Shown: positions 32,427-37,228 of the stretch, piece by piece
Numbering within the stretch: the first letter of the stretch is position 1
Layout: every line of letters begins with the position of its first letter
Origin: Deltaproteobacteria bacterium HGW-Deltaproteobacteria-18
GTDB taxonomy: Bacteria > Desulfobacterota > Desulfovibrionia > Desulfovibrionales > Desulfomicrobiaceae
Reading direction: 5' to 3'
DNA: 64,000 bases
Assembly: GCA_002841885.1 (NCBI GenBank)
Contig: PHBE01000007.1
Location: 248,001 to 312,000, forward strand
Position numbers and translations under genes: made by a program
Notes under the pieces: generated by a model
What the model was told of the DNA's origin: nothing
What the model saw: only the letters and a program-made list of their open reading frames with translations
Database searches by the model: none

Positions 32427-33422
32427 ATGGCGTATATTCTGGCCGCCGACATCGGCGGGACCAACAGCCGTTTCGGTCTTTTCGACCATTTGCCGGGTCG
32501 GGATCCGGAGCTTCTGGAGTCTTTTGGCGTTCTGACCGCCTCAGTCTCTTCCTTTGCGCAGTTGCTGCGTCGGGTGCGGGACGAGGGCTTGAGCCTTGAT
32601 CCCATGGACGCGGACCAGGTCGTCCTGGCAGTGGCCGGACCCGTGCGGGACGGGGTGAGCTGCAGCCTGACCAACGCTTCCTGGGATATCGATCTGCGCG
32701 AGCCTGCGGCCGGATTGCCGATTGAACGGACCGTCCTCATCAACGATTTCGTGGCTCAGGCCCTTGGCTGCCGGACCCGCAAGGCGGCCGAGTCCTCCAT
32801 CCTGATACAGAAGGGAGTCCCTCGTCCCGCAGTGGTGGCAGCGGTGGGTCCGGGGACGGGACTTGGTCTTTGCGCCCTGGCTCCGCTGGCCGGGAGGTGC
32901 CCTGGTTTTCTGGCCCTGCCTTCGGAGGGCGGGCATGCTCCGCTGGCCTTCGTGACCGAACGCGAGTTCGATTTTCTGCGTTTTCTGCAGGCCCGCACCG
33001 GCCATTCCCATGCATTCGGCGATATCGTGGTCTCGGGCCGGGGCCTGAGCGCCATGCACTTGTTTCTGACGGGACGCGACCTGCCCGCTGCGGAGGTGGC
33101 GCGGGAAATCGACCCTGAAAGCGAGACTTCAGAGTGGTTCGCGCGCTTTTTAGGCCGTGCCTGCCGTGCCTATGTGCTTCATGTGCTGGCCTGGGGCGGT
33201 CTTGATCTGTGCGGCGGGATTGCGGCCAAGAATCCCTTTTTGGCCGCTCACGATGAATTTTTGCGTGAATTTTGCGATTGCCCGGCCTATGGGCATCTAC
33301 TGGCCCAGATTCCCGTCCGCCTGATCACTGCCCAAGACACGGGCCTGCGCGGCGCGGCCAGCCATGCACGGAGTCTGCTTGACGCCGAAGCAAAAGACGC
33401 TGCCCACGTTTTTGTGGGGTAA
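32427..33422 (+). CDS. glk: Glucokinase
   Basis: 331-residue hexokinase of the proteobacterial Glk type. The phosphate-1 motif is LAADIGGTNSRFGLFD, followed by LAVAGPVRDGVSCSLTNASW, NDFVAQALG with the catalytic Asp, VGPGTGLGLCAL and SEGGHAPLA. It phosphorylates glucose with ATP. ATG 32427 follows GGGGGAG by five bases. It stands as a single gene. Confidence 0.9.
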   Translation: MAYILAADIGGTNSRFGLFDHLPGRDPELLESFGVLTASVSSFAQLLRRVRDEGLSLDPMDADQVVLAVAGPVRDGVSCSLTNASWDIDLREPAAGLPIERTVLINDFVAQALGCRTRKAAESSILIQKGVPRPAVVAAVGPGTGLGLCALAPLAGRCPGFLALPSEGGHAPLAFVTEREFDFLRFLQARTGHSHAFGDIVVSGRGLSAMHLFLTGRDLPAAEVAREIDPESETSEWFARFLGRACRAYVLHVLAWGGLDLCGGIAAKNPFLAAHDEFLREFCDCPAYGHLLAQIPVRLITAQDTGLRGAASHARSLLDAEAKDAAHVFVG

Positions 33423-33482
33423 CAGCCTACGAAAATGTTACCTTCTTTTTCACATCGATCATAAAAACCAGATAGTTGCAAC

Positions 33483-33498
33483 TGGCACGAGAGCTGCT
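33483..33498 (+). promoter_or_regulatory. Sigma-54 promoter before the repeat protein gene
   Basis: CTGGCACGAGAGCTGCTT: the -24 element TGGCACG (GG at 33484-33485) and the -12 element CTGC (GC at 33496-33497) have exactly ten bases between GG and GC. Only one base departs from the YTGGCACGrNNNTTGCW consensus. Transcription would start near 33509, just before the AGGAGG ribosome site of the gene at 33524. An activator with upstream sites would be required. Confidence 0.72.
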
Positions 33499-33523
33499 TC
33501 AGCCTCCCTAACAGGAGGCTGCC

Positions 33524-34474
33524 ATGCCCGTCATCACGACACCATTCGGAGTTCTTGAAACCCTTCCCGATATAGAATTTTTTCCGGGCGGCACCGTGCA
33601 GTCCTGCATCGCCGCCCAGGCCTGTCCCCTGTCCACCCCTGTCGGTTTCCTTGTCCCTCAGTTCACTGCCCGCACCCTGCGCAAGCGCCAGTTGCCGGCC
33701 ATTTCCTTCCATCCAAATGGCATGATCCGCAATCTTCCGCTGGAAGAGCAGGTCATGGTCCCGACTCCTCTTGGCACACTGCCCGCCGAACAGGTCACTT
33801 TTTATGATACCGGAGCCGTCAAGCGCGTTTTTCCGTTGAACGGAACCCTGAGCGGTTACTGGACCCAGGAGGACGAGGCCGCCATGGCCACGCCCCTGAT
33901 CCTCGACACGCCCATCGGGTGCGTCGAGGTCAAGCCGGTGAGTGTCTATTTTGGTCCCCAGGGCAATCTGCGCGGCCTGACCCTATGGCCGGGCACGGTG
34001 CTTGATGTGCCCACTCCGCTCGGCAGCATCTGCGTACGGATCGGTGTCTCATTTTTTGACAGCGGCGTTTTGCGCTCCGTGGAACCGGCAGAGCCCGTAG
34101 CCGTGCCGACGCCTGTGGGCGTGCTTCTGGCCTTTGACCAGGATGCGGTGGGCATCTGCGGGGATAAGAACTCGCTGCGCTTCCGCGAAAATGGAGGCTT
34201 GCTTGGCCTGACGACGGCGGCTCACGCTTTTGAGGTCGAGATGGAGAACGGGCGCAGGCGGACCCTCACCCCGCCCCTGCGCCGACACCCCTGCGACGGC
34301 GAGCGCATGGAAGCGGGCTCCATAACTCTGGATTTCAGCCCAGGGCAGGTCAGTTTCACATTCGCGGATTCCCCGCTCATCAAGGTCAAGGCCGAAGGAA
34401 TTACGGCGACCCGTTTTTTTCTGCCGCTGCCTGCGTTGTCTCCCATGTGTTCCATGGGCGCGGGCAAGTGGTAG
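33524..34474 (+). CDS. Hypothetical protein with six TP(F/V/L/I)G repeats
   Basis: 316-residue soluble protein made of about six tandem units of 30-45 residues. Each begins TPFG, TPVG, TPLG or TPIG and then runs as paired strands around a Gly turn (PGGTVQS, PNGMIRN, DTGAVKR, PQGNLRG, DSGVLRS, ENGGLLG). The units start near residues 6, 39, 81, 126, 165 and 193. This resembles a beta-repeat scaffold built on a (phi)F-x-x-x-G-x-(phi)-(K/R) turn. I know no named family for it. No signal peptide. It is driven by a near-consensus sigma-54 promoter and followed by a small gene at 34506. Confidence 0.8.
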   Translation: MPVITTPFGVLETLPDIEFFPGGTVQSCIAAQACPLSTPVGFLVPQFTARTLRKRQLPAISFHPNGMIRNLPLEEQVMVPTPLGTLPAEQVTFYDTGAVKRVFPLNGTLSGYWTQEDEAAMATPLILDTPIGCVEVKPVSVYFGPQGNLRGLTLWPGTVLDVPTPLGSICVRIGVSFFDSGVLRSVEPAEPVAVPTPVGVLLAFDQDAVGICGDKNSLRFRENGGLLGLTTAAHAFEVEMENGRRRTLTPPLRRHPCDGERMEAGSITLDFSPGQVSFTFADSPLIKVKAEGITATRFFLPLPALSPMCSMGAGKW

Positions 34475-34505
34475 TCCGCATGAACTAAACCGCTACGGAG
34501 GAATC

Positions 34506-34757
34506 GTGAACGTAAGCTGTCTGGAAAAAGTCGTGGAATACGCATCCATGCCCCTGCACGGGACACTCTCGCGCAAGCTCAGAAAGGGACTCAAGATTCA
34601 GATCAATGAAGGGCGGGTCTATGAAAAGGCCGTTCTTTTCCTGGGTTCCGATTTTCTGCGCGTGACCGAGAAGGATGAAGGACTGTCAGTCAATACATAT
34701 TATGGATGGGAAGAGATCGCCTCCATCCGTACCTACAGTTCGGAACCGGAGGAATAG
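34506..34757 (+). CDS. Small conserved hypothetical protein
   Basis: 83-residue protein from a GTG start with CGGAGG five bases upstream. It is probably one small beta-rich domain (GLKIQINEGRVYEKAVLFLG, SVNTYYGWEEIASIRTY). No known motif. It begins 31 bases after the repeat protein and likely shares its sigma-54 transcript, which ends at the hairpin 34762-34781. Confidence 0.7.
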   Translation: MNVSCLEKVVEYASMPLHGTLSRKLRKGLKIQINEGRVYEKAVLFLGSDFLRVTEKDEGLSVNTYYGWEEIASIRTYSSEPEE

Positions 34758-34761
34758 TCGA

Positions 34762-34781
34762 AGGGGGCTTTTTGGCCCCCT
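34762..34781 (+). terminator. Hairpin after the sigma-54 unit
   Basis: Perfect 7-bp stem AGGGGGC/GCCCCCT around TTTTTG. There is no T run downstream, so termination strength is uncertain. The 173 bases from here to 34955 hold no gene that I can see. Confidence 0.55.
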
Positions 34782-36430: not shown

Positions 36431-37228
36431 ATGTTTGAAGTGATCGCTTTGTATCTGGCCGTGGGCGCGGTGGCCGGGGTTTTGGCCGGATTGCTGGGCA
36501 TCGGGGGCGGACTTGTCATCGTGCCCATGCTGGTATTTTGCATGGAGTTGCAGAATCTGCCTCAGGAACTGATCATGCATCTGGCGCTGGGCACCTCCAT
36601 GGCCAGCATCATGTTCACCTCGGTTTCGAGCTTCATGGCCCATCATCGCCGGGGGGCGGTGGAGTGGGGCGTGGTCAGGCGCATCGTGGCGGGCATCCTG
36701 GTCGGCACGCTCCTCGGAGCCTGGGTGGCTGCGCAGATGAGCACCGGTGCGCTCAAGATATTTTTCGTCATTTTTCTTTACTACGTCTGTTACCAGATGC
36801 TTTCCGGCAAGAAACCCAAGCCGTCGCGCGTTATGCCGGGAGCGGCCGGGATGTTCGGGGCGGGCAATGTCATCGGGGTGGTTTCGAGCCTGGTCGGCAT
36901 TGGCGGAGGCACACTCTCCGTGCCGTTCATGGTCTGGCACAATATTCCCATCCACAAGGCCATAGGCACTTCCGCCGCCATCGGGTTTCCCATCGCCGTG
37001 GCTGGAACAGTGGGCTACATCCTGAACGGCTGGGGCGTGGACTCCTTGCCGCCCTATTCCCTGGGCTACGTCTCCCTGGTAGCCTTGGTCTCCATTGCGG
37101 TCATGAGCGTCATCACCGCTCCTTTGGGCGTGCGTCTGGCCCACAGCCTGCCTGTGGACAAATTGAAGAGAGTGTTCGCGCTGATTCTCTTTTTGGTGGG
37201 CACCAAAATGCTGATATCGCTTTTTTAG
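36431..37228 (+). CDS. TauE/SafE family sulfite/organosulfonate exporter-like permease
   Basis: 265-residue membrane protein with about eight helices in two halves. The N-terminal half has AGVLAGLLGIGGGLVIVPML and the second half VSSLVGIGGGTLSVPFM, the duplicated Gly-rich motifs of the family. Members export sulfite, sulfoacetate or related anions. The substrate here is unknown. GGAGAG precedes the ATG. It probably responds to a GntR-type regulator through the operator at 36363-36377. Confidence 0.9.
   Translation: MFEVIALYLAVGAVAGVLAGLLGIGGGLVIVPMLVFCMELQNLPQELIMHLALGTSMASIMFTSVSSFMAHHRRGAVEWGVVRRIVAGILVGTLLGAWVAAQMSTGALKIFFVIFLYYVCYQMLSGKKPKPSRVMPGAAGMFGAGNVIGVVSSLVGIGGGTLSVPFMVWHNIPIHKAIGTSAAIGFPIAVAGTVGYILNGWGVDSLPPYSLGYVSLVALVSIAVMSVITAPLGVRLAHSLPVDKLKRVFALILFLVGTKMLISLF

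Follow-up and report, generated by a model that had tools for sequence, protein, structure and literature searches.

The closest described counterparts of the locus analysed here are the AnfA and VnfA regulons – the anf genes of R. capsulatus and the vnf genes of A. vinelandii – in which a sigma-54 box is combined with dyads of the TAC-N6-GTA type. In the available excerpts of the respective papers the AnfA consensus is given as TAC-N6-GTA (PMC7294313) and the VnfA motif as GT(T/A)C-N6-GTAC (PMC9542535). For D. vulgaris, the AnfA/VnfA-like protein DVUA0143 has been proposed as the likely regulator of the nifH operon (PMC4641369, available in part); its targets in Table 1 of that source, as far as the available part extends, are DVUA0015-DVUA0007 and DVUA0016 only, with no stand-alone pair of the kind described below. 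The strain DP4 equivalent of the divergent gene is annotated as homocitrate synthase. Fitness on N2 has been reported for the nif-cluster genes of D. vulgaris (PMC10102598, in excerpt), and the DP4 nif region has no annotated TPxG gene. The window – the whole 64-kb stretch of DNA under analysis – holds a unit with the same combination of sigma-54 box and dyads; whereas the targets in the AnfA/VnfA regulons are nitrogenase genes, here the target would be a stand-alone unit of two genes, one encoding a protein with repeated TPxG motifs and the other a small partner (Table 1). That this unit belongs to the nif regulon is a conclusion we hold with high confidence. It is also likely, if somewhat less secure, that positions 33403-34757 constitute a nif accessory operon, situated away from the main nif cluster and induced together with nitrogenase by an AnfA/VnfA-like activator.

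The original prediction had described a six-unit TPxG repeat protein followed by a small second gene, and both open reading frames are as it described them. The motifs (TPFG, TPVG, TPLG, TPIG, TPLG and TPVG at residues 6, 38, 81, 129, 164 and 196) were matched in number by 0 of 20,000 shuffles of the protein, the shuffle mean being 0.26 copies. Directly 3' of the small gene, at window positions 34763-34780, lies a hairpin (GGGGGC-TTTTT-GGCCCCC) that perhaps marks the end of the operon. The gene at 36431-37228 (plus strand) encodes what we take to be a TSUP-type permease, with no NCBIfam match at E 1e-10; it stands near the TPxG gene in its own genus and has relatives no more than about 1.5 kb from TPxG in two g39 loci; L013, L020, L062 and L063 are the loci concerned.

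Table 1. Predicted control elements, genes and conserved features of the two-gene unit (window coordinates).
Feature	Position	Strand	Basis and remarks
Putative activator site 1 CCCACGTTTTTGTGGG	33403..33418	+	YAC-N6-GTR dyad; 121 nt before ATG; matrix score 11.8
Putative activator site 2 CCTACGAAAATGTTAC	33426..33441	+	98 nt before ATG; 23 nt from site 1; matrix score 9.8
Sigma-54 (-24/-12) promoter TGGCACGAGAGCTGCT	33483..33498	+	Predicted; GG-N10-GC core; 41 nt before ATG
Ribosome-binding site, TPxG gene (AGGAGG)	33513..33518	+	Sequence
TPxG repeat protein gene	33524..34474	+	316 aa; ATG start; model all beta apart from two helices, a short one mid-chain and one C-terminal
Six-TPxG-motif span	33539..34120	+	Codon starts 33539, 33635, 33764, 33908, 34013, 34109
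Conserved segment, residues 101-118 (FPLNG-LSGYWTQEDE region)	33824..33877	+	Top-conservation blocks, 49-row alignment; pLDDT 76 and 70
Conserved segment, residues 203-220 (A-x-D-x-D-A-x-G-I-x-G-D-x-N-S-L-x-F)	34130..34183	+	49-row alignment
Cys257 codon	34292..34294	+	Cys in 45/49 rows (redundant set)
Cys309 codon, low-confidence C-terminal tail	34448..34450	+	Cys in 44/49 rows
Ribosome-binding site, small gene (GGAGGA)	34497..34502	+	Sequence
Small partner protein gene	34506..34757	+	83 aa; GTG start

The predicted promoter scores 11 on a 12-position count. Its GG-N10-GC core has the exact spacing that had been claimed for it and sits in a TGGCAC-N5-TTGCW-like context, and a like box precedes 35 of 47 relatives located outside nif clusters. 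Two boxes scoring at least 10 occur in the 64-kb window, and only the one at 33483 has nif-type sites upstream. A search for an activator site upstream of position 33480 had been suggested, and two predicted palindromes are present there, the first overlapping the 3' end of the glucokinase open reading frame. The score of the best site in this region was equalled in 0.5% of 200 shuffles, and the spacing of the two sites is kept within the genus, all 10 of its rows in the promoter scan having them at -121/-98 or -122/-99. Both are YAC-N6-GTR variants of the TAC-N6-GTA type published for AnfA (PMC7294313, excerpt). The source genome's own nifH is preceded by a sigma-54 box and one strong activator site.

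For 47 relatives that lie outside nif clusters, drawn from 46 genomes, the promoter scan took in the 300 nt preceding each gene; it left out nif-cluster relatives, repeat copies of a genome that came from a different collection, L037, L040, and loci that were truncated or lay at contig edges (for example L011, L016 and L058). Activator sites were scored with a matrix derived from 36 sites that precede nifH, the P value of each site being taken from 200 shuffles. A box scoring at least 9 at -75 to -20 was found in 35 of the 47 relatives, against 1.04 expected from shuffles; these 35 span 11 genera, two of which supply 22, and congeners are not independent. An activator site at P<0.05 accompanies the box in 34 of the 35, in a test that is not fully blind because the core of the matrix was fixed after both promoter sets had been seen. 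Among the 12 relatives with no box scoring 9, only two have sites at P<0.05.

A sigma-54 box also precedes nifH in the loci examined, together with palindromes built on TAC-N6-GTA; 21 of 23 upstream regions contain one or more near-matches (by our own rule). Twelve nif-cluster loci were examined: a box plus site lies upstream of the nifV-TPxG operon in eight, and no such combination was found upstream in three g32 loci or in L061. Throughout 1.17 Mb of loci a box scoring at least 10 with two sites occurs in 44 places, the 33483 promoter alone qualifying in the window; 11 of the places are before TPxG genes, 5 are elsewhere, and 19 before nifH and 9 on the divergent (nifV) side are matches to be expected because the matrix was trained there. 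For the small gene outside nif clusters no consistent site was found: 5 of 24 upstream regions reach P<0.05, and a good box together with a site occurs in none.

Three further observations arose from these loci. At L057:7203 (minus strand), about 3.6 kb from a g56 TPxG gene, a sigma-54 box with two strong nif-type sites precedes a gene that the nif activator may also control. The TPxG genes of L068 and L079 have no nif-type promoter; beside them lie genes with sigma-54-activator motifs (GAFTGA, AAA+). L085 (genome G255) has a second, divergent TPxG copy with no promoter, in which the tail cysteine is kept and Cys257 is not.

Many relatives lie in the nif clusters themselves. The distance between the TPxG gene and nifD is no more than 12 kb in at least 52 of 129 genomes, representing five genera (g52, g48, g32, g38 and g21), and that between the small gene and nifD in at least 21 of 72, representing six (g52, g39, g51, g33, g29 and g21). 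Both are near nifD in 16 genomes, where, among the matches listed, they occupy opposite flanks of nifD. In L064, L080 and L086 the order nifV-modA-modB-TPxG is found on one strand, divergent from nifH; of the NCBIfam models in L064, TIGR02660 (NifV) is the best match but under its cut-off and ModA and ModB are above theirs, while the other nif-cluster gene names used here come from motifs or from our reading of the sequence, not from models. In L094, L174 and L180 the small gene comes after nifB, in L176 it is flanked by nifK and nifE, and in L177 and L178 it lies 3' of nifK; the two f105 loci showed no nif motif up to 10 kb from it. In the genus of the window the two genes form a unit behind glucokinase (glk), a gene present in all 16 genomes of the genus. 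In one nifD-negative member (G010, 88% complete) glk is followed, some 320 nt on, by the counterpart of the window's downstream 4Fe-4S gene (86.7% identical), and both intervening genes are gone: their joint absence, with the flanking genes kept, supports the earlier view that they are a genuine two-gene unit. The other nifD-negative genomes of the genus have neither gene within 1.5 kb beside glucokinase.

It might be argued from the nifV-modA-modB-TPxG operon, which TPxG ends in several genera, that the protein serves molybdenum supply – by binding, storing or releasing molybdate or thiomolybdate in sulfidic cells – and that its benefit to nitrogenase is only indirect. Sulfide renders molybdenum scarce, and two conserved cysteines of the TPxG protein would suit such a task. 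However, the other genera examined, the window's own included, have no mod neighbours, and the fold and profile searches matched no known molybdenum-binding fold; we consider this reading unlikely.

The distribution of the genes bears on the preferred reading, that the unit is a nif accessory operon. A TPxG profile (A1, 17 rows) was searched in 348 genomes of the order: the gene is present in 129 of them (23 of 59 genera), and in 15 of 395 genomes sampled from the phylum, three of which are outside the order. The small gene was found in 72 of these 348; among the 395 from the phylum, profile A2 detected it in 9, of which eight belong to four families outside the order. (The A2 alignment left out L102, L104, L106-L108, L110, L111, L119 and L121, as near-duplicates or contig-end cuts, and L125, which has an in-frame stop.) Genomes counted as nifD-positive are the 172 with a match minus six weak ones (best E 8.9e-11 to 7.4e-4), and partial matches occur among the carriers, as in G007 (490 contigs, E 7e-81 only). 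Within the order TPxG and nifD occur together in 128 genomes, TPxG alone in one, nifD alone in 38 and neither in 181; the single exception, G198, is 66% complete. Carriers of the small gene have nifD in 70 of 72 cases, the exceptions being G220 (73% complete) and G228, which is 67% complete and matches nifD only weakly. Fisher tests against nifD gave p values of 4e-59 (TPxG) and 3e-24 (small gene), which ignore phylogeny, the genomes being related. In the genus of the window the TPxG set and the nifD set are the same 11 of 16 genomes (in one of the 11, G006, TPxG is present as a contig-end fragment only), and the small gene is found in 10. All three TPxG-positive genomes outside the order have nifD over the cut-off.

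The association runs in one direction. TPxG is lacking from 38 nifD-positive genomes and both genes from 31, and the two are thus accessory. The nif region annotated on the DP4 plasmid of D. vulgaris contains neither gene, and tblastn with a TPxG relative (L047) and the window's small protein gave no match in a plasmid collection that includes nifH-bearing N. vulgaris plasmids. Since nifD genomes and the DP4 plasmid do without them, neither gene is needed for nitrogen fixation generally. As a separate observation, nifV and nifH point away from each other in the N. vulgaris DP4 plasmid locus (L163), where the nif genes are followed immediately by a gene annotated as the antiviral reverse transcriptase Drt2.

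These counts also weigh on the proposal that the TPxG protein responds to nitrogen starvation in general, independently of nitrogenase, and came under the same class of activator by happenstance. Other nitrogen genes of this order are likewise under sigma-54 promoters, according to the available part of PMC4641369; but with a single carrier lacking nifD among 129, the gene in 0 of 5 nifD-negative genomes of its own genus and many TPxG copies adjoining nifV and nifH, we judge this improbable.

Neither window protein matches any Pfam or NCBIfam model up to E = 1, in keeping with the original statement that no family could be recognised. Weak local matches are confined to other relatives, and lie below the Pfam cut-off where scored. 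DUF7406 (PF24155) matches 9 of 17 members (E up to 1, best 2.2e-4), and its bit scores in six relatives – 12.5-16 in three, 21.4 in L047, none in two – compare with a cut-off of 28.4; MORN_2 (PF07661) matches 1 of 17 at E 0.012. The window protein itself has no match to either up to E = 1, and the clear hit to a known domain family that had been named as a possible refutation did not appear.

The AlphaFold2 model of the TPxG protein (pLDDT 87, pTM 0.81) is nearly all beta, a predicted chain of beta hairpins. It had been suggested that the tandem units make a scaffold or binding surface; a beta-strand platform, which may bind a partner, fits the model. Its nearest folds by VIA are open single-layer sheets at Z 5 to 7 with large rmsd, and a Z below 8 may reflect merely a common arrangement. 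The CPAP G-box/TCP10 (4ld3; Z 6.9, 138 aligned, rmsd 10.5) and OspA (2oy8; Z 6.7, 182 aligned, rmsd 7.0) share with it an extended antiparallel sheet, but at identities of 8-9% and Z below 8. Foldseek found nothing for the TPxG model at E 0.001, and a profile match to the designed beta-propeller Pizza (6ren) at E 8.7e-5 is not significant in its single stretches. The small protein is modelled as a helix with a small sheet (pLDDT 86, the five models ranging from 67 to 86); the structural searches gave a clear fold for neither protein, a result that excludes no family.

The most conserved stretches of the TPxG protein (about residues 101-120 and 201-220) are among those less confidently modelled, as partner-binding loops might be, though over all blocks conservation and pLDDT show no significant anticorrelation (rho -0.22, p 0.24). 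Cys257 and the tail cysteine occur together in 40 of 44 non-redundant rows, with neither in two and one alone in two. The tail around Cys309 is otherwise variable, and Cys28 is found in 28 of the 40 two-cysteine rows. A signal peptide is not evident in the sequence.

In a further alternative the protein would be a MORN-like or OspA-like scaffold at the surface or membrane, serving the cell envelope. The one MORN_2 match at E 0.012 and the OspA mutants found by VIA at Z of about 6 to 7 speak for it; the lack of an evident signal peptide, the caution that applies to Z below 8 and the cytosolic role predicted from the nif link make it highly improbable. Least credible is a chance linkage through lifestyle, gene and nif both being kept in large free-living genomes: carriers do tend to have larger genomes and many sigma-54 regulons follow a free-living lifestyle (PMC4641369, available part), but against this stand the physical linkage to nif clusters, the activator sites in common, the loss of the whole unit from G010 with its flanks intact and the presence of the neighbouring glucokinase in every genome of the genus.

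Given nif-type control sites and near-exclusive presence in nifD genomes, the TPxG protein and its partner are probably undescribed nitrogen-fixation helper proteins. Like the accessory proteins of nif clusters, they are encoded in such clusters in many relatives and are almost confined to nifD-positive genomes, but unlike those they lack a Pfam or NCBIfam match. A literature search returned no described nif-linked gene of this kind in the portions of the papers available. Separately, we know of no phenotype for either gene. The original prediction had put the unit forward as a candidate for an undescribed function; this holds for the biochemical step, which cannot be named, and fails for the pathway, which can, the link to nif having been missed.

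Operon anatomy, co-occurrence with nifD, nif-cluster location and the shared type of promoter and activator site were computed; from here we infer how the unit might work. When fixed nitrogen is exhausted, a NifA/AnfA/VnfA-like activator (best candidate G000:C7:34720-36237) would bind the two palindromes and drive sigma-54 RNA polymerase at 33483, and both proteins would be made together with nitrogenase. The TPxG protein, most likely cytosolic, would act as a platform; its pair of conserved loops and pair of conserved cysteines may hold a partner in nitrogenase maturation or else a cargo, be it metal-sulfur or molybdenum. The small protein would be a second accessory protein, encoded within the nif operon in several other families. 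A specific role in nitrogenase maturation or in molybdenum or cofactor supply is put forward only tentatively. More speculative still, and in our estimate rather a long shot, is that TPxG is a new nitrogenase cargo carrier: its C-terminal cysteine tail and Cys257 would hold a metal-sulfur or molybdenum species, it would be made with nitrogenase in sulfidic, molybdenum-scarce cells, and the small nif-cluster protein would aid the hand-over.

As to the activator, the one encoded beside the small gene in L094 has its best match among the eight own EBP loci compared in L132 (59.6% over 361 aa), which scores 521.5 against a NifA cut-off of 528.85. On these grounds that activator, the candidate G000:C7:34720-36237, is probably the organism's own counterpart of DVUA0143. 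Flagellar regulation of the TPxG unit was an initial guess, dropped when neighbours and co-occurrence indicated nif; the flagellar activator DVU1063 has 12 operons assigned to it in the available part of PMC4641369.

The assembly of nitrogenase is among the most complex of metal-cofactor pathways, and its transfer to new hosts requires that every helper be known. The two conserved protein families described here have no Pfam or NCBIfam model and are linked to nif in a sulfate-reducing order, and the small one also occurs within nif operons in additional families of the phylum. Such families are direct candidates for the helpers still missing, perhaps ones suited to sulfidic conditions. The AnfA/VnfA-like control of nif proposed for this order would thereby extend to a stand-alone target operon.
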